A stretch of DNA of 64,000 bases. It comes from Candidatus Competibacter sp. (GTDB lineage: Bacteria; Pseudomonadota; Gammaproteobacteria; Competibacterales; Competibacteraceae). Of this stretch, positions 2,586-9,905 are shown in pieces. The notes beneath the pieces are model-generated. The model saw only the letters and a program-made list of their open reading frames with translations, ran no database searches and had not been told where the DNA came from. The number at the start of each line of letters is the position of its first letter. Position 1 is the stretch's first letter. Both the position numbers and the translations under genes were made by a program. The stretch covers positions 1-64,000 of the forward strand of contig JARSSH010000029.1 of assembly GCA_029624815.1 (NCBI GenBank), written 5' to 3'.

Positions 2586-3338
2586 TCAATAATCCTCCAG
2601 CCACGGGCTGATGGAGATGGAACCCACCGGCATGCCGTCCTTGGGCGACAGCGCCATGACGATGTCCTTGTTGTTGCCCTTGAGCGGTAGGTATAGGTAA
2701 TCCTCCAGTCGTCCACCTTGATTGATGACGAAAGCATCGATGGCTTGCTTGGCGTCCGCGCTCGCGGCGGCGATTTTGGACAGATCGATGCCGCGCGCGC
2801 GGAGTTGTTGCGGGTCGGGCCGGTAGGGTTCGTACAGTTCGGCCCGGAATTCCAAATCTTTCTGACCCCCTAAAACGACGCCGAACAGCAATTCCTGCCG
2901 TTGCTGGAGATCCTTGGGCGGTTTGGCTTCCGCCAGCATCGGCCCGATGCCGGCGATGCGCTTCAATTCTGGATACCGGAGTTGTTCGAAATCCACGTCC
3001 GCCGCCGGCACGGTAGTGAAGCGGTCGACCCCGAACACCACGAAGGCTGGGCGTTCCTGGTAGATGATCGTTCCGCCGTAGATCAATGCGCCCAATTGCG
3101 CCACCACGATACAGCTCATGTCGAACTTCAGGCCGGGCTTGCCGGGTTTGAACACGATCAAAGTCAGCAACGGTCCCAGAACCACATCCACGCCGGCCAG
3201 AATCCGCAGCACTTTCCAGCCGCCGTCCGTTTCGAAATACGGTGCTGGATACCAAGCAAGAAACATCACGCCCAGGAAAGCGAGAACAATGATCGCGCTT
3301 GCGGTCAAGTGGATGGCAAAAGCGCGTAATTTGGTCAT
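2586..3338 (-). CDS. TfpX/TfpZ-family type IV pilin accessory protein (isolated copy)
   Basis: A 250-residue inner-membrane protein like the accessory factors encoded beside PilA in many proteobacteria, which help surface assembly of a particular pilin. It has an N-terminal membrane segment (AFAIHLTASAIIVLAFLGVMFLAWYPAPYFE), a second and third hydrophobic stretch (ILAGVDVVLGPLLTLIVF; CIVVAQLGALIYGG), and a soluble C-terminal half ending EDYLYLPLKGNNKDIVMALSPKDG. The start is set at ATG 3338 because the truncated duplicate begins at the same place; a GTG lies 15 bases upstream. No pilin gene is adjacent: it lies directly after a MazEF-like pair, so it looks like a displaced copy. Confidence 0.75.
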   Translation of the reverse strand: MTKLRAFAIHLTASAIIVLAFLGVMFLAWYPAPYFETDGGWKVLRILAGVDVVLGPLLTLIVFKPGKPGLKFDMSCIVVAQLGALIYGGTIIYQERPAFVVFGVDRFTTVPAADVDFEQLRYPELKRIAGIGPMLAEAKPPKDLQQRQELLFGVVLGGQKDLEFRAELYEPYRPDPQQLRARGIDLSKIAAASADAKQAIDAFVINQGGRLEDYLYLPLKGNNKDIVMALSPKDGMPVGSISISPWLEDY

Positions 3339-3357
3339 TGGAGAGCAAAGCACCTGT

Positions 3358-3669
3358 TCAGAAACCCAGAGCGAATAGAAGCGCGGTTTTGACCTGCTCC
3401 ATGCGTCGGTCGTTGAGGGTGGCGATGCATGGCCCGACCTTGGCCTTGGTAACGGTTTGTACGTGATCGAGATTGATGGCGCAGGTTTTGGGCATTCCGT
3501 CTTCTGGAGTCAGGATCACTTCGCTGGGAATGTGCCGGATCGTGGAGGTGATCGGTGCGATGGTCACTTCGCCCAGCACATCCAGAATCGAGTCTCGCGT
3601 CAGGATCAGTATCGGTCGTTTTTTGTCGGGCGTCTTGAACGTGTACCAGCGAATTTCACCGCGCCGCAT
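3358..3669 (-). CDS. MazF/PemK-type mRNA interferase toxin
   Basis: A 103-residue endoribonuclease toxin. It begins RRGEIRWYTFKTPDKKRPILILTRD, the conserved N-terminal strand set of the MazF fold, followed by VTIAPITSTIRHIPSEVIL and the NLDHVQTVTKAKVG segment that carries the catalytic-site Thr. MazF proteins cut mRNA at short sequences and are neutralised by their antitoxin. Its ATG shares one base with the stop of the upstream ribbon-helix-helix gene, so the pair is translationally coupled. No disabling change is visible. Confidence 0.9.
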   Translation of the reverse strand: MRRGEIRWYTFKTPDKKRPILILTRDSILDVLGEVTIAPITSTIRHIPSEVILTPEDGMPKTCAINLDHVQTVTKAKVGPCIATLNDRRMEQVKTALLFALGF

Positions 3670-4093: not shown

Positions 4094-7000
4094 TTATTGC
4101 TGTGCTCCAAGTTTTTGTAATAACTTAACGTTATTATCCGCAGAAAATTCAATTAATGAATTGCCTTTAGGTGTCGAATATTCAAGATATAAATTAACAT
4201 CCGTTGATTGCAACCATTGTAGTTCAGGATCAAATTTTTTCATGATTCGATCAACCTCGGAAGGAGAAAGCAAGAGGCTTTCTTCGAGCGTCTTTACGGA
4301 TACTTTATAATTTTCCGGATGAGCGCCAAGCTTTTCCCTTGCTTCAGAGTTGTTCAACGCAGCAGGCGAATTAGATGCCACGATAATGCCTTGCCCTCCT
4401 GAAAAGTAGATCCAGACATATTTGAATTCGGAACGAACAGACCCAAGAATATGCAATAGATCCATTGGGCGCATATGATGTAATTGTACCCACTGCTGTA
4501 AAACACCTTGGTTTTTGAGGCGCTTTCTAGCTAATGTATAAAATTCCTTATTATATAAGTTAGCGGCGCCCGCAAACCAGATGCTGGAAATTTCCATACT
4601 AATCAAATCATATTGGCGATCTTGAGTCAGCAGAAAGTTTCGCCCATCTGTATAATACATTTGCACGCTAGGGCTCTTTGATACTAAACCATTAATATTG
4701 AAAAAGTGTTTGTCCGCCATATCCACAATATCCTTGGAGAGTTCGGCAATATCGATGTCCCTATATCCTTCTTCATATAAGACGTGTGCTGACATTCCGG
4801 TGCCATAACCAATGACGAGAGCATCGTCGCGTCGCTCCGTATGCAGCAAAGGTATAAGTGCAAAAGAAGCTTGTGCCACCATTTCGCCTCCTTTGGCATT
4901 GTTTCCTTGAAATTTTCCATTTGTCAGCAAAGTAAGCAGACGATCTTGCCTGTCAGGCGCTTCTTGGGCGGCTACTGTGGTCAATCCTCCTTCCGCGCTT
5001 TCTGCACTGTCAATCACACGGCCCCAGTTTTGAAAATGGAAATACACGTTGCCCCCTTGAGAAAGGGCCGTGTAATCCCAATGTTTTGGGAAAAATGGTA
5101 ATAACAGTATCGCTAATCCAATAGGTGCTAGTTGTCGCCATTCCCAGCGATGCCAGAAAGCCTGATTCGACATGGATTGCCTATTTTTTGCGCTTGTCAG
5201 CCATATAAGCAATGCGAGAAAAATAGCAACACTCATGAGTCCAAGATAGACAATGCGCGATCCATAGTATGGCAATAACCAGAAAGCTGCCAGTATGACT
5301 CCAGTGATGTTACCCAACGTATTTAGTCCACTCGCTATTCCTAAACCTTTAGTCGCCTTGCTTTTACCAAGCCAGTCAGCAGCCATGCCCATTGCTCCTG
5401 GATAGCTCATGCCAATGAAAAAGGCGGGTGGCATCATGGCGATAGCACAAACGATGCCACGAATGATTTCACGCCCGGCAAATCCAATGTGAATATGATA
5501 ATATTGATAAGAAAATCCAAAGCTACCTAAATAATCCGCCAAGCCATCCCACACAAAAGCTGTCAATAAAATGGTAACCGCTACACCTGATTGAGCCCAA
5601 ATTACTACTGTGGCGCGTTCTATACGGCGGAGTAAGTACTCTCCGATCGCCGAACCAGCTCCCAATCCAAGCAAAAATGTCGCCAGCATTAGGCCAAAAG
5701 CATAGACGCTATTGCCTGCTACGACTGCCAGCATATGCATGTTCAGTACTTCCAATGCCAAGGTAACCGCACCGCCGATCGTAAGCACAGCCACGGATGC
5801 CCATCCCAATTGGTGCGAAATACTTGAGGTTTGAGCTTCCGTACTAGTCGCTTCTGGCCGCGCCGCTAAATTGCTTGCATCCAGCGCAGGTTGAGTTTTC
5901 AGTTTTTCTATCACGTACAGCGCTACCAGCAGGCTGATCAACGCCGCCATATAAGTGGCGCTATTGCGCCCCAAGGTTGGCAGCAAGACGTAGCTCCCGG
6001 CTAGCGCGCCAGTAGCCGCGCCTAGCACGTTCGCACTATATAGCGGGGCGATGGCCCGCTCGCTCGCCATGCCCATTTGCTTAAGTTTTTTGAACACGAG
6101 CGGCAGGGTGGCGCCCATCAATACGGTAGGTACGCCCAGTACTGCCACGCCGAGCGCCACGCGCAGGACTGTCAGCCAGGAAGAATCAGGCGGTTCGTTT
6201 AGCGCTATTGCCACGTACGCGTTCTGAACCCAGTGGAAAAATGACGGTGTCAGCAGAGCGTAAAATCCAATCGCAGCTTCGCAGATGGCGTAAAGCCACA
6301 AGGGGCGCGTGCTGCGCTCAGCCAATAAGCCTCCCATCCATGCACCTAGGGCCATGCCACCCATATAGGTTGCCAATACCGTATTGGAGGCGAGCGTGGT
6401 GCCGCCAAAAGTAACACCAAGCGCCTTGGCGTAAACGACCTCATACACTAATCCGGCAAACCCGGATATGAAAAAGATTCCGATCAGCCAGCCGCCAGTG
6501 GCGCGCAACTCCTGAGGTAATAAAAGACGAAATCCCCAAGCGGTCTGGGTTGCGGGCATGTTTGGGGCCACGGTCTCCTGATGCCCCAAGACGTCTTTTT
6601 CACGCCAGACCATCCGCGCATAAATAATAAACAGCACCAACGCAATCAATATACTCCAGATGGAAAATAACTGGATAAACCACAAATGGGTATAGAGCCA
6701 CTCGGTGGCCAAACGCATTAGCCCCATCCAGACAAAAAACGTGCTTCCACACAAATAAAAAATCGCCTGCTGTATCTTCGTTCGCTGTGCCCAAAGCGGC
6801 GGGGAAATTAAAAGAACCCCTAGCCATATCACGAAAGGTAGTGCCACAATTAGATCTAAAAAATAATGTTCACCAGTTGTCAAGGTGGCACATGCCGTTA
6901 TTCCAGCAAACACACACAGCGCGGCAAAAATCAGTTTATTTCGCAAGCCGGCCGATACCATGACAAGCAGTAAGGCGGCTGACAGATGCATGGATGGCAT

Positions 7001-7873
7001 GGCATTTCGAGCCACTGGTATGACTATCGATAAAGCAGTGGGAACGTGGTCTAGTGAAGGTAGATTGTATGGAAAAAGGAGTCTATTGAAAGCATAAATG
7101 GGTCCAGTGGCGGGCAGCCAAGAATAACACAACCAAGCAACTCCATAAGGAATGACTAGAATCCGCCAGACATTGAGCGGTTTTGTCTTTGATTCGCGTA
7201 TCAGAACCCCCATCACGAGTAGTTGTGCCACAGTAACCAGATTGTAAGTAGCTTCAACAGTAGCCTGCCAAATCGGCCAAGCCGTATCGTTCCATTTTGC
7301 CAACGATGTTGCCAACCCACCATAAGCAGCATCCATGTGAAAAATGTAATAATCAAATGTCGCCGGAAAAATCACATCTCCAATCTTCAGCATATTCCAT
7401 GTGGTTTCTCCAACAAGAACAACGAATAAAGAGAACCAAAAGAGATCATAAATCCATTGTGGAACAGGTTGTTTCCGGTATTTAGCGGTAACCGCGATAA
7501 AAAATATCCTAACCAGTGCAACGGCACCAAACGGAGCTAATACGACGAACAGGTTAAAATGCTGCGCACGCATTTTTCCAGGGTAGAAATAATAATAAGA
7601 GAATAGCAAAGCGAGGCCTGCACCGAGGCAAAAACAGGCAGCGCGCATGCTCAAGTTGTACTTGTTGCCGATCCAGAAGGTGAAAGATGATAAGCCCGCA
7701 TAGGCTCCGATAAATAGTGTTGTGCCAATTACGCTGGTGAAGGATGATAAAAAAGTGGTGGTCGCGTAAGCCTCCCCACGAATACCGAAAAGCATGATTT
7801 CAGAAATGATGGCAACGAATATTACCAATACAGTCCAGTTGCGCATCTGCGTATCGGGTTCTGATCGATTCAT
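4094..7873 (-). CDS. PAP2-type phosphatase fused to a membrane spermidine-synthase-like protein
   Basis: A 1259-residue polytopic protein with three parts. Residues 1-430 have many membrane segments and the PAP2 lipid-phosphatase boxes: RNAMPSMHLSA (289-299, His296) and GEHYFLD (334-340, His336 and Asp340), most like the inositolphosphotransferase (Aur1/IPC synthase) branch. Residues 455-930 look like the membrane half of fused MFS/spermidine synthases (GFAGLVYEVVYAKALGVTFGG). The C-terminal 300 residues are a spermidine-synthase Rossmann domain (VIGYGTGMSAHVLYEEGY near 1020; TDGRNFL near 1067). PAP2 enzymes hydrolyse or transfer phosphate esters of lipids; the SpeE-like part could transfer an aminopropyl or similar group. 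The gene ends 12 bases upstream of tfpZ and the pilins, so a role in pilin or envelope-lipid modification is plausible but inferred. It is more AT-rich than its neighbours, suggesting acquisition. Confidence 0.75.
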   Translation of the reverse strand: MNRSEPDTQMRNWTVLVIFVAIISEIMLFGIRGEAYATTTFLSSFTSVIGTTLFIGAYAGLSSFTFWIGNKYNLSMRAACFCLGAGLALLFSYYYFYPGKMRAQHFNLFVVLAPFGAVALVRIFFIAVTAKYRKQPVPQWIYDLFWFSLFVVLVGETTWNMLKIGDVIFPATFDYYIFHMDAAYGGLATSLAKWNDTAWPIWQATVEATYNLVTVAQLLVMGVLIRESKTKPLNVWRILVIPYGVAWLCYSWLPATGPIYAFNRLLFPYNLPSLDHVPTALSIVIPVARNAMPSMHLSAALLLVMVSAGLRNKLIFAALCVFAGITACATLTTGEHYFLDLIVALPFVIWLGVLLISPPLWAQRTKIQQAIFYLCGSTFFVWMGLMRLATEWLYTHLWFIQLFSIWSILIALVLFIIYARMVWREKDVLGHQETVAPNMPATQTAWGFRLLLPQELRATGGWLIGIFFISGFAGLVYEVVYAKALGVTFGGTTLASNTVLATYMGGMALGAWMGGLLAERSTRPLWLYAICEAAIGFYALLTPSFFHWVQNAYVAIALNEPPDSSWLTVLRVALGVAVLGVPTVLMGATLPLVFKKLKQMGMASERAIAPLYSANVLGAATGALAGSYVLLPTLGRNSATYMAALISLLVALYVIEKLKTQPALDASNLAARPEATSTEAQTSSISHQLGWASVAVLTIGGAVTLALEVLNMHMLAVVAGNSVYAFGLMLATFLLGLGAGSAIGEYLLRRIERATVVIWAQSGVAVTILLTAFVWDGLADYLGSFGFSYQYYHIHIGFAGREIIRGIVCAIAMMPPAFFIGMSYPGAMGMAADWLGKSKATKGLGIASGLNTLGNITGVILAAFWLLPYYGSRIVYLGLMSVAIFLALLIWLTSAKNRQSMSNQAFWHRWEWRQLAPIGLAILLLPFFPKHWDYTALSQGGNVYFHFQNWGRVIDSAESAEGGLTTVAAQEAPDRQDRLLTLLTNGKFQGNNAKGGEMVAQASFALIPLLHTERRDDALVIGYGTGMSAHVLYEEGYRDIDIAELSKDIVDMADKHFFNINGLVSKSPSVQMYYTDGRNFLLTQDRQYDLISMEISSIWFAGAANLYNKEFYTLARKRLKNQGVLQQWVQLHHMRPMDLLHILGSVRSEFKYVWIYFSGGQGIIVASNSPAALNNSEAREKLGAHPENYKVSVKTLEESLLLSPSEVDRIMKKFDPELQWLQSTDVNLYLEYSTPKGNSLIEFSADNNVKLLQKLGAQQ

Positions 7874-7885
7874 GTCAAGCCCTTT

Positions 7886-8680
7886 TTAAAATCCGTCCAC
7901 CGAAGTATAACCGACAATTTTTGCCTGATCATTGAGAAGCACAATCCAGCCATCCAGTATTTTCTGGCTAGTCAGTGGCAGGTAATATAAACGGTCTAGC
8001 GCCAGATTAATGCTGTGCGCGGCGGCATCGATAACGGCCCGCGCTTCGACCGGGCACTGGGCGCGCAGGTCGCTCAGCTTCTTCATGCGGGCCTGCACCT
8101 CAGTCTCGCTTTTCTCATAGGCCTGCCACCAACCGGGGCGTGCGCTCGGCTCCACGCCTTGCAGCGACTGATCGATGCTGGCGAGCATTTCTCGGTTGTC
8201 TTTGGGGGTGCGTGTGCCGATCAGCCGTGGCCCCCGCCATGATAGATGCCGCAAGTCTGGCGGCGCCTGCGGTAGTTGCGCCGGGTCGATCTGCGCGGCG
8301 GACACCGCCACAAAGCGGTCTGTTTCAAATGCCAGCACCACCGGGCGCGCCAGCGCCATGCTATGCAGGCCGTAGCTCAGCGCGCCTAGTTGCAGCAGGG
8401 CGACCAGCGACAAGTCCAACAGCAGAGCACGGCGTGACTTGTAGGGGTTATACAAAATAGCGCTTAGAAGCGGGCCGCATACCACGATCACCCCTGCCGT
8501 CAGCCCTAACAGGCGGTCACCGCCGGCCAGACTGTAAAAGGGAAAGGGGTACCACACGCCCAACACCAAGGTTGCCGCCAGCGCGGCAAGGCTGGCGCTG
8601 ATGCCCAAATGCACCGCGCCAGCCTTGCAGGCTGCATGGAGTCTGGTTTTGTCCATCGTTTTCAATAACGCGGAAATCAT
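7886..8680 (-). CDS. TfpX/TfpZ-family type IV pilin accessory protein
   Basis: A 264-residue inner-membrane protein immediately after two pilin genes, the normal place for this accessory factor. It has the family layout: an N-terminal membrane segment ending VWYPFPFYSLAGGDRLLGLTAGVIVVCGPLLSAILYNP, a third hydrophobic segment (LSLVALLQLGALSYGLHSM), then a soluble domain ending ALDRLYYLPLTSQKILDGWIVLLN. It aligns by eye with the displaced copy at 2586-3338 but is clearly diverged. The start at 8680 has GGAGAGG close before it; ATG 8656 is an alternative. It probably forms an operon with the pilins and perhaps the downstream fusion gene. Confidence 0.8.
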   Translation of the reverse strand: MISALLKTMDKTRLHAACKAGAVHLGISASLAALAATLVLGVWYPFPFYSLAGGDRLLGLTAGVIVVCGPLLSAILYNPYKSRRALLLDLSLVALLQLGALSYGLHSMALARPVVLAFETDRFVAVSAAQIDPAQLPQAPPDLRHLSWRGPRLIGTRTPKDNREMLASIDQSLQGVEPSARPGWWQAYEKSETEVQARMKKLSDLRAQCPVEARAVIDAAAHSINLALDRLYYLPLTSQKILDGWIVLLNDQAKIVGYTSVDGF

Positions 8681-8707: not shown

Positions 8708-9253
8708 TCAACGACACTGGGCGGGGGCGTACTTGGCCAGCATCGTTGCGCCGCCGAGTACCGTGATGCCACTGGCGCTGGCCGTAGCGCTAGTTGCGGA
8801 CGCGCAGCCCCAGTCCACCGCGCCCGTATCGCCGGCGGCGATGGCGGCGGATAACCCTTGACCACCGCCTGCGGCGGCATTGCGCACCCACGGGGTCAGG
8901 GTAAGAACATTCTGAGCCGATGCCACGCCCACGCTTGTGGGGTTGTACGTAACGGTGATAAGGCCTGTACCGCTGTCGATCAGCACCGAGTTGACGAATT
9001 TGGAGTTGGCGCCCGTGCTGCTGGCCTGCGCGTTCCACGCCGTGGCGACGCGTTGCAAATCGATGCTGGCGGCAGCGGCTTCCCCTGCAATCATCAGCTT
9101 GGCCGTTTCGGCCAGGGCCAGCCCCTCGGCGACACGGGTGCGAATGGTGTAATCCTGGTAGGCTGGAATGGCGATGGCGGCCAGAATGCCGACGATCGCC
9201 ACGACGATCATCAATTCAATGAGGGTAAATCCTTTTTGTAGCGATGCGTTCAT
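8708..9253 (-). CDS. Type IV pilin (PilA-like), second copy
   Basis: A 181-residue major-type pilin. It has a short positive leader (MNASLQKG), the prepilin peptidase site G|FTLIELM with Glu5, and the hydrophobic N-terminal helix ([23 protein letters not shown]). C-terminal cysteines (WGCASATS and the final QCR) would form the disulfide loop. The reading frame is open further upstream, but ATG 9253 is chosen because it gives a normal leader and has GGAGAGG eight bases before it. It is a tandem paralogue of the pilin at 9363-9905, sharing most of its sequence but differing in the middle. A terminator-like hairpin separates the two, so this copy may be read at a lower level. Confidence 0.92.
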
Positions 9254-9315: not shown

Positions 9316-9343
9316 AAAAAAAGGGCACCGAAGCGCCCTTTTT
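9316..9343 (-). terminator. Rho-independent terminator between the two pilin genes
   Basis: GGGC-A-C / G-C-GCCC stem with a CGAA loop (9323-9338), flanked by an A-run (9315-9322) and a T-run (9339-9343). Read on the minus strand it gives a hairpin followed by seven Us just after the first pilin gene. The flanking runs make it potentially bidirectional. Partial read-through would feed the second pilin and tfpZ. Confidence 0.75.
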
Positions 9344-9362: not shown

Positions 9363-9905
9363 TCAACGGCACTGAGCGGGGGCGTACTTGGCCAGCATGT
9401 TTCCGGCGGTGCCTACCGTGATGCCACTGGCGCTGGCGGTGGCGTTGGTTGCGGACGCGCAACCCCAGTCCACCACGCCCGAGTCGCCAGCGACGATGGC
9501 GGCAGCCAACGATTGACCGGCGCCTGCCGCGGCATTGCGCACCCACGGGGTCAGGGTAATCAGATTCTGACCCGATATCACGCCCACGTTCGCGGGGTTG
9601 TACGTGATGCTGATAACACCTGTGCCGCCAGCGATCGTCACCGAGTCGACGAATTTGGAGTTGGCGCCCGTGTTGCTGGCCTGTGCGTTCCAAGTCGTGG
9701 CGACGCGAGTTAGATCGGCAGCGGCGGCGGCGCCATCGGTGGCAACGGCCAGTTTGGCGGGTTCGGCCAAGCTCAAGCCTTCAGTGACGCGGGAGCGAAT
9801 GGTGTAATCCTGATAAGCCGGAATGGCGATGGCGGCCAGAATACCGATGATCGCCACGACGATCATGAGTTCGATCAAGGTAAAGCCGCGTTGGAACTTG
9901 TTCAT
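9363..9905 (-). CDS. Type IV pilin (PilA-like), promoter-proximal copy
   Basis: A 180-residue type IV pilin: leader MNKFQRG, cleavage before FTLIELM with Glu5, then the polymerisation helix [23 protein letters not shown]. The globular domain ends with WGCASATN and AKYAPAQCR, the disulfide pair. It is first in the leftward pilin cluster, about 90 bases below a sigma-54-type promoter, and has its own downstream terminator, so it is probably the abundant pilin. The second pilin has nearly the same start and end but a different centre, typical of tandem duplication with divergence of the surface-exposed part. Confidence 0.93.

Follow-up and report, generated by a model that had tools for sequence, protein, structure and literature searches.

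Bacteria rely on type IV pili for twitching, adhesion and DNA uptake, and phages use them as receptors; decoration of their pilin subunits alters phage and immune recognition. Several described systems come close to the gene considered here. Pilin-accessory cassettes of Pseudomonas aeruginosa consist of a pilin gene, an intrinsic terminator and an accessory gene, and no accessory gene described there has PAP2, MFS or SpeE parts (PMC11841053). The donor pathway of pilin phosphocholine is described as unknown; phosphoethanolamine transfer followed by methylation has been raised as a possibility (PMC10434233). In proteins of the spermidine synthase (SpeE) fold, the Asp/Glu of the GxG(D/E)G loop is needed for decarboxylated S-adenosylmethionine (SAM), and a fungal membrane-bound SpeE-like protein without the same acidic residue, NHMT, uses SAM to methylate secreted proteins (PMC10349129). 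Here, we describe a gene in a 64,000-nucleotide stretch (the window) from Candidatus Competibacter sp. (contig JARSSH010000029.1 of assembly GCA_029624815.1) that joins PAP2, MFS and SpeE-like parts in one protein and lies behind type IV pilin genes. Such fusions recur beside pilins in diverse lineages and very probably represent an unrecognised enzyme that decorates pilins chemically, probably not by the polyamine chemistry of the annotation.

Linkage of the fusion to type IV pilins

A scan of ~85,000 species genomes, seeded with two C-terminal subfamily peptide motifs (E[IT][ST]SIWFA and GVLQQWV), gave 72 confirmed loci. A PAP2 part is present in 33 of them: 32 in alignment A4, plus L089, which was read in two frames. 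PAP2_3 Pfam matches (E up to 0.01) were obtained for 33/33 members, with all 32 of A4 among them. Type IV pilin open reading frames (ORFs) were recognised by a signal-motif pattern around the 27 fusions whose upstream sequence extends for at least 1 kb. A same-strand pilin ORF occurs within 1.7 kb upstream of 22/27 fusions compared to 0/31 PAP2-less relatives (Fisher p=1.4e-11). Beyond 3 kb from the fusion, only five pilin-like ORFs are present in 280 kb of these loci, a density that predicts, by our own arithmetic, well under one such neighbour per 27 fusions. Ten neighbour proteins were checked with Pfam; eight are pilins, with the N_methyl motif in all and the Pilin domain in most, and the remaining two are PglL-type ligases. 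Three of the five exceptions still lie near pilins (L059 at 2.7 kb on the other strand, L070 at 7.5 kb, and L073, in which the fusion is divergent from a PF14245 PilA), and TfpZ homologues adjoin 14 loci. Between pilin and fusion, a terminator-like hairpin with a T run is present in 15/15 loci inspected (counted without a shuffled control). This order of pilin, terminator and fusion is the layout reported for the P. aeruginosa cassettes and points to an accessory slot behind pilA.

The linkage is our strongest result and supports assignment of the fusion to pilin biology; a pilin-accessory function is likely. The link to pilins is strong, while the chemistry is what we infer from the domains. 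A preliminary description, made from the letters of the window alone, had guessed at a pilin locus with a role in pilin biology and had predicted that PAP2-SpeE fusions would recur beside pilA/tfpZ. Both expectations agree with the two pilins upstream in the window and with the linkage elsewhere. It had also named homologues never found near pilins, and loss of catalytic residues, as findings that would count against it; both were looked for and neither holds.

The fusion gene and its distribution

The fusion protein exceeds the Pfam gathering cut-offs for PAP2_3 (PF14378, E=1.9e-12, residues 202-349, 47.8 bits against a cut-off of 27), MFS_1 (4.8e-9, residues 717-911) and Spermine_synth (1.5e-8, residues 1005-1148), which upholds the three-part architecture of the preliminary description. 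The scan returned solely these domains, with no alkaline-phosphatase/sulfatase domain as in PptA. The protein also passes NCBIfam NF037959, ‘fused MFS/spermidine synthase’ (84.2 bits against a cut-off of 40, 8e-24). Another species of the genus (L047, a Candidatus Competibacteraceae metagenome-assembled genome, MAG) has a full-length orthologue with 88% identity that is preceded by the same pilA-pilA-tfpZ row; the ORF is therefore genuine, and a chance ORF or assembly artefact is ruled out. Nonsynonymous and synonymous divergence between the two (dN 0.063, dS 0.385, dN/dS ~0.16) indicates that the gene is under purifying selection. Its guanine-cytosine (GC) content is 0.472 compared to 0.612 in the whole window, so that the AT-richness claimed earlier is confirmed, as is the 12-base spacing after tfpZ.

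The fusion carriers are Competibacteraceae, Accumulibacter, Burkholderiales (Variovorax, Inhella, Rhodoferax, Hydrogenophaga, Mitsuaria and Oxalobacteraceae), Iodobacter, the methanotrophs Methylobacter and Methylomicrobium, Acinetobacter, Moraxella, Cardiobacterium, a Legionellales MAG, an Archangium MAG and an acidobacterium; many of the surveyed contigs are MAGs. Loci without the PAP2 part come mainly from Myxococcota and Acidobacteriota. Fusions form almost a single cluster in the tree, with 3 label changes compared to a shuffled mean of 23.4. The PAP2 part alone, searched against small samples (369 genomes of the class and 398 of the phylum), gave no further fusion and one weak partial PAP2 match; the lineage oddity that these samples suggested was overturned by the motif-guided scan. 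Viral contigs searched held no relative of the fusion, and the plasmids searched held only MFS-SpeE pieces at ~24–31% identity without PAP2. MasABK of Myxococcus was compared and is unrelated. Fusion-gene GC lies below that of the flanks in 24/28 loci, which suggests repeated transfer or compositional constraint. A Cardiobacteriaceae MAG (L055:5248-13798) has a tandem pair of fusion genes (open frames of 1302 and 1273 residues) behind several pilins. Genes of the Wzy_C/PglL-type O-glycosylation ligase (O-oligosaccharyltransferase) family occur within 5 kb of the fusion in six loci (L050, L059, L061, L069, L071 and L104; Pfam-checked in L050, L104 and L059), which suggests pilin islands with two modification systems.

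Domain structure and predicted chemistry

Residues R289, N290, P293, S294, H296, H336 and D340 of the PAP2 part are kept in 31/31 fusions; the PAP2 boxes around His296, His336 and Asp340 that had been called intact are thus invariant. Structures were predicted with AF2 separately for the PAP2 part (pLDDT 90.7) and the C-terminal part (MFS, 13th helix and SpeE-like domain; pLDDT 91.4). The closest Protein Data Bank (PDB) fold to the PAP2 part is inositol phosphorylceramide (IPC) synthase (Z 14.7, root-mean-square deviation (rmsd) 5.1, 234 aligned), followed by Aur1 (Z 14.2, rmsd 5.9, 253 aligned); PAP2 phosphatases rank lower (Z 10–12.6, with LpxE at 12.6 and PgpB at ~11). This transferase-like rather than phosphatase-like ranking is only moderate evidence because Foldseek alone gave no significant E-value; a sequence-profile search of the PDB with PAP2-part sequences gave chance matches only. 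Aur1-like headgroup transfer is predicted for the PAP2 part, with confidence evenly divided. A stand-alone PAP2_3 gene is the commonest non-trivial neighbour of PAP2-less MFS-SpeE genes and adjoins them in six loci (L079, L084, L087, L094, L107 and L113, from Acidobacteriota, Myxococcota and a planctomycete). This arrangement looks like the fusion split over two genes, at loci remote from pilins. The adjacency indicates that PAP2 and MFS-SpeE parts serve one process; in the pilin-linked branch the two are fused.

The SpeE-like domain model matches the spermidine synthase fold of 6qmm (Z 27.6, rmsd 2.9, 264 aligned), and the nearest solved relative is an aminopropyltransferase. Nucleoside-binding features are retained (G1022, G1024, G1026, D1076 and E or D at 1044), and T1025, S1097, E1094 and D1076 occur in 31/31 fusions. 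Thus, the SpeE-type glycine loop described as intact does keep its glycines, but Thr1025 replaces the aminopropyltransferase Asp/Glu. With Ser1097 also in place of an acidic residue, the whole family lacks two of the three acids by which aminopropyltransferases are defined. The SpeE model TIGR00417 scores 48 bits on the fusion protein, under its NCBIfam cut-off of 249.55. No match to SAM decarboxylase (AdoMetDC, PF02675) was obtained in 8/20 carrier genomes, with Acinetobacter sp. ANC 5054 and Hydrogenophaga taeniospiralis among the eight, and SpeE passed its NCBIfam cut-off in none of 12 carrier genomes searched. The aminopropyl-type transfer first proposed for this protein is not borne out by the replaced residues and the missing AdoMetDC. 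SAM-dependent transfer instead of aminopropyl transfer is probable from these residues. Methyl is the likeliest group to be moved because the acidic residues are replaced, AdoMetDC has no match in those carriers and NHMT offers a precedent, and another SAM-derived group, such as aminocarboxypropyl, may be moved instead.

The modelled MFS domain has the standard 12-helix fold (Z 26–29, up to 29.2) and is followed in the model by the 13th helix at residues 906-927. Mean Lys/Arg is higher in loops assigned to the cytoplasm than in outer loops, with complete separation in the MFS half. Cysteine is scarce in the SpeE-like domain (7/8314, 0.08%, with none in 28/31) compared to soluble SpeE of the same class (112/5565, 2.0%). 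Two sets of 12 helices plus a 13th, with this positive-inside pattern, would place the SpeE-like domain in the periplasm, where the PAP2 site would also lie, an orientation drawn from composition that could equally hold or fail. Other ‘fused MFS/spermidine synthase’ proteins (L026-L036 and L039-L046) also have a SpeE loop without Asp/Glu and zero to one Cys in the SpeE-like domain, which hints that the whole annotation class is neither aminopropyltransferase nor cytoplasmic.

Proposed mechanism and alternatives

From the computed slot, conserved residues, folds and co-occurrence we infer an acceptor, transferred groups, sidedness and transport. The fusion fills the accessory slot behind pilA that is held in other bacteria by the pilin glycosyltransferases TfpO/TfpW. 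Its Aur1-like PAP2 domain, with an active site on the periplasmic side, would take a phospho-headgroup from a phospholipid and attach it to a hydroxyl, the likeliest acceptor being an inner-membrane pilin awaiting assembly. The SpeE-fold domain would bind SAM rather than decarboxylated SAM and move a group derived from SAM, of which methyl is the likeliest; Glu1094 would serve as the base, and this domain is apparently periplasmic. The MFS domain would bring SAM, or else a charged product, through the membrane. Taken whole, a pilin-accessory modifying enzyme of a type new to the sources searched has about an even chance of being the right description of this protein family. A self-contained periplasmic machine, in which the MFS part exports SAM, the SpeE-like part methylates and the Aur1-like part decorates pilin with the headgroup of a phospholipid (as when phosphoethanolamine is methylated in place to phosphocholine), is unlikely, and phosphocholine or a methylated phospho-form as product is quite doubtful.

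Several points weigh against a pilin-modifying role of this kind. The 31 PAP2-less control loci of the pilin test come mainly from other phyla. The eight AdoMetDC absences rest on draft genomes, in which genes may be missed, and other decarboxylase types exist. Cysteine is also scarce in loops on both membrane sides, so that its scarcity in the SpeE-like domain is only supportive. A periplasmic SAM-dependent domain would require SAM export; the endoplasmic reticulum faces the same supply problem, for which Golgi SAM transporters have been cited (PMC10349129), and the fused MFS domain is a possible, speculative answer to it. PAP2-less relatives and separate PAP2/MFS-SpeE pairs in Acidobacteriota and Myxococcota lie away from pilins, which means that a lipid may have been the original substrate. 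These pairs fit a lipid-handling enzyme, in which the PAP2 part works on membrane or undecaprenyl lipids, either as a phosphatase or by transferring headgroups (for example, to recycle the carrier used in PglL pilin glycosylation), the SpeE-like part alkylates lipid, and pilin is helped only indirectly. The six loci with PglL/Wzy_C-family genes and the structural matches to LpxE and PgpB point the same way, but most fusions have a pilin and no PglL-family ORF within 5 kb, and the closest solved folds are transferases (IPC synthase and Aur1), not phosphatases. We regard this alternative as somewhat unlikely.

A genuine aminopropyl (polyamine) transferase acting on pilin or lipid would suit the spermidine-synthase fold, its nucleoside-binding residues and its closest solved relative, but is improbable with Thr for the GxG(D/E)G acid and Ser for the second Asp of DSxDP in every fusion, and with no AdoMetDC match in the carriers noted above. 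It is similarly hard to credit that the fusion gene just travels with recombining pilin islands and serves no function related to pilins. Its low GC relative to flanks does suggest horizontal transfer, yet order, spacing and terminator are conserved across diverse lineages, catalytic residues are conserved, and the dN/dS ratio is low. A SAM-dependent fold beside pilins could also mean that the fusion stands in for prepilin peptidase as N-methyltransferase of the pilin N-terminus; we reject this highly improbable reading because the bacterial A24 prepilin peptidase N-terminal domain (PF06750) is kept in 9/9 carrier genomes tested.

The locus in the window

Features of the locus are collected in Table 1. 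The terminator-like hairpin of the window falls between its two pilin genes. A second TfpZ copy (2586-3353, 218 bits, above the cut-off) is situated downstream, unaccompanied by a pilin, and is separated from the fusion side by a PemK/MazF-like toxin gene (3358-3669). A probable IS200-type transposase remnant (171-542, assigned by eye), a PIN-domain protein (698-1120) and a DUF29 protein (1577-2035) form a mobile-element-like margin of the pilin locus.

Table 1. Coordinates of the fusion gene, its domains and motifs, and the adjoining pilin genes in the window (res, residues; TM, transmembrane)
Feature	Position	Strand	Basis or remark
Fusion gene PAP2-MFS-SpeE-like	4094..7873	(-)	1259 aa; ATG start and stop codon
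Aur1/IPC-synthase-like PAP2_3 domain, res 1-445, ~12 TM helices	6539..7873	(-)	Pfam, AF2 model
PAP2 motif C2 RNAMPSMH, res 289-296	6986..7009	(-)	R, N, P, S and H invariant
PAP2 motif C3 HYFLD, res 336-340	6854..6868	(-)	H336 and D340 invariant
12-helix MFS domain, res 461-895	5189..6493	(-)	AF2 model, fold match, Pfam MFS_1
13th helix, res 906-929, predicted membrane crossing	5087..5158	(-)	AF2 model and charge pattern
Spermidine-synthase-fold domain, res 930-1259	4097..5086	(-)	Pfam Spermine_synth; fold match 6qmm
Nucleotide-binding loop GYGTG, res 1022-1026	4796..4810	(-)	Thr1025 in place of aminopropyltransferase Asp/Glu
Motif EISSIW, res 1094-1099, at DSxDP position	4577..4594	(-)	E1094 acidic, S1097 for second Asp
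tfpZ-like pilin accessory gene	7886..8680	(-)	12 bp upstream of fusion ATG; TfpX/TfpZ model NF041437, 185 bits, slightly below the 200-bit cut-off
Type IV pilin, immediately upstream of tfpZ	8708..9253	(-)	Pfam Pilin and N_methyl
Second type IV pilin	9363..9905	(-)	Pfam Pilin and N_methyl
Intrinsic-terminator-like hairpin and T run after first pilin gene	9316..9343	(-)	Direct sequence reading

Significance and comparison with described systems

A conserved, pilin-linked enzyme in diverse lineages points to a pilin modification that is undescribed in the literature searched, in which coverage of subscription journals is thin and no description of a PAP2-MFS-SpeE fusion was found. The fusion gives the annotation ‘fused MFS/spermidine synthase’ its first functional clue and leads to a claim that can be put to the test, namely that the periplasm may host SAM-dependent chemistry. 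If the self-contained machine is correct, it would be a bacterial SAM-dependent enzyme that is active outside the cytoplasm, and the layout of MFS, 13th helix and Cys-poor SpeE would extend to the wider annotated family.

Members of NF037959 have MFS and SpeE-like parts in common with the fusion, which adds the PAP2 domain, the EISSIW subfamily motif and pilin linkage. Aur1, IPC synthase and sphingomyelin synthase (PAP2_3 type) have the same fold and His-His-Asp site; compared to Aur1/IPC synthase, the fusion adds MFS and SpeE-like domains and sits in pilin loci. Fungal NHMT likewise joins a membrane domain to a SpeE-like domain without the loop Asp/Glu and acts on secreted proteins (PMC10349129), but its membrane part has seven TM helices instead of an MFS domain and it has no PAP2 part. 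Neisseria PptA does a job comparable to that proposed for the fusion, transfer of a phospho-headgroup from phospholipid to pilin, although it belongs to the alkaline-phosphatase superfamily (PMC10434233), a fold unrelated to PAP2. The P. aeruginosa cassettes (tfpO, tfpW and tfpX/Y/Z) have the same pilin-terminator-accessory slot; TfpO and TfpW are glycosyltransferases, unlike the fusion, and TfpZ relatives often stand alongside it.

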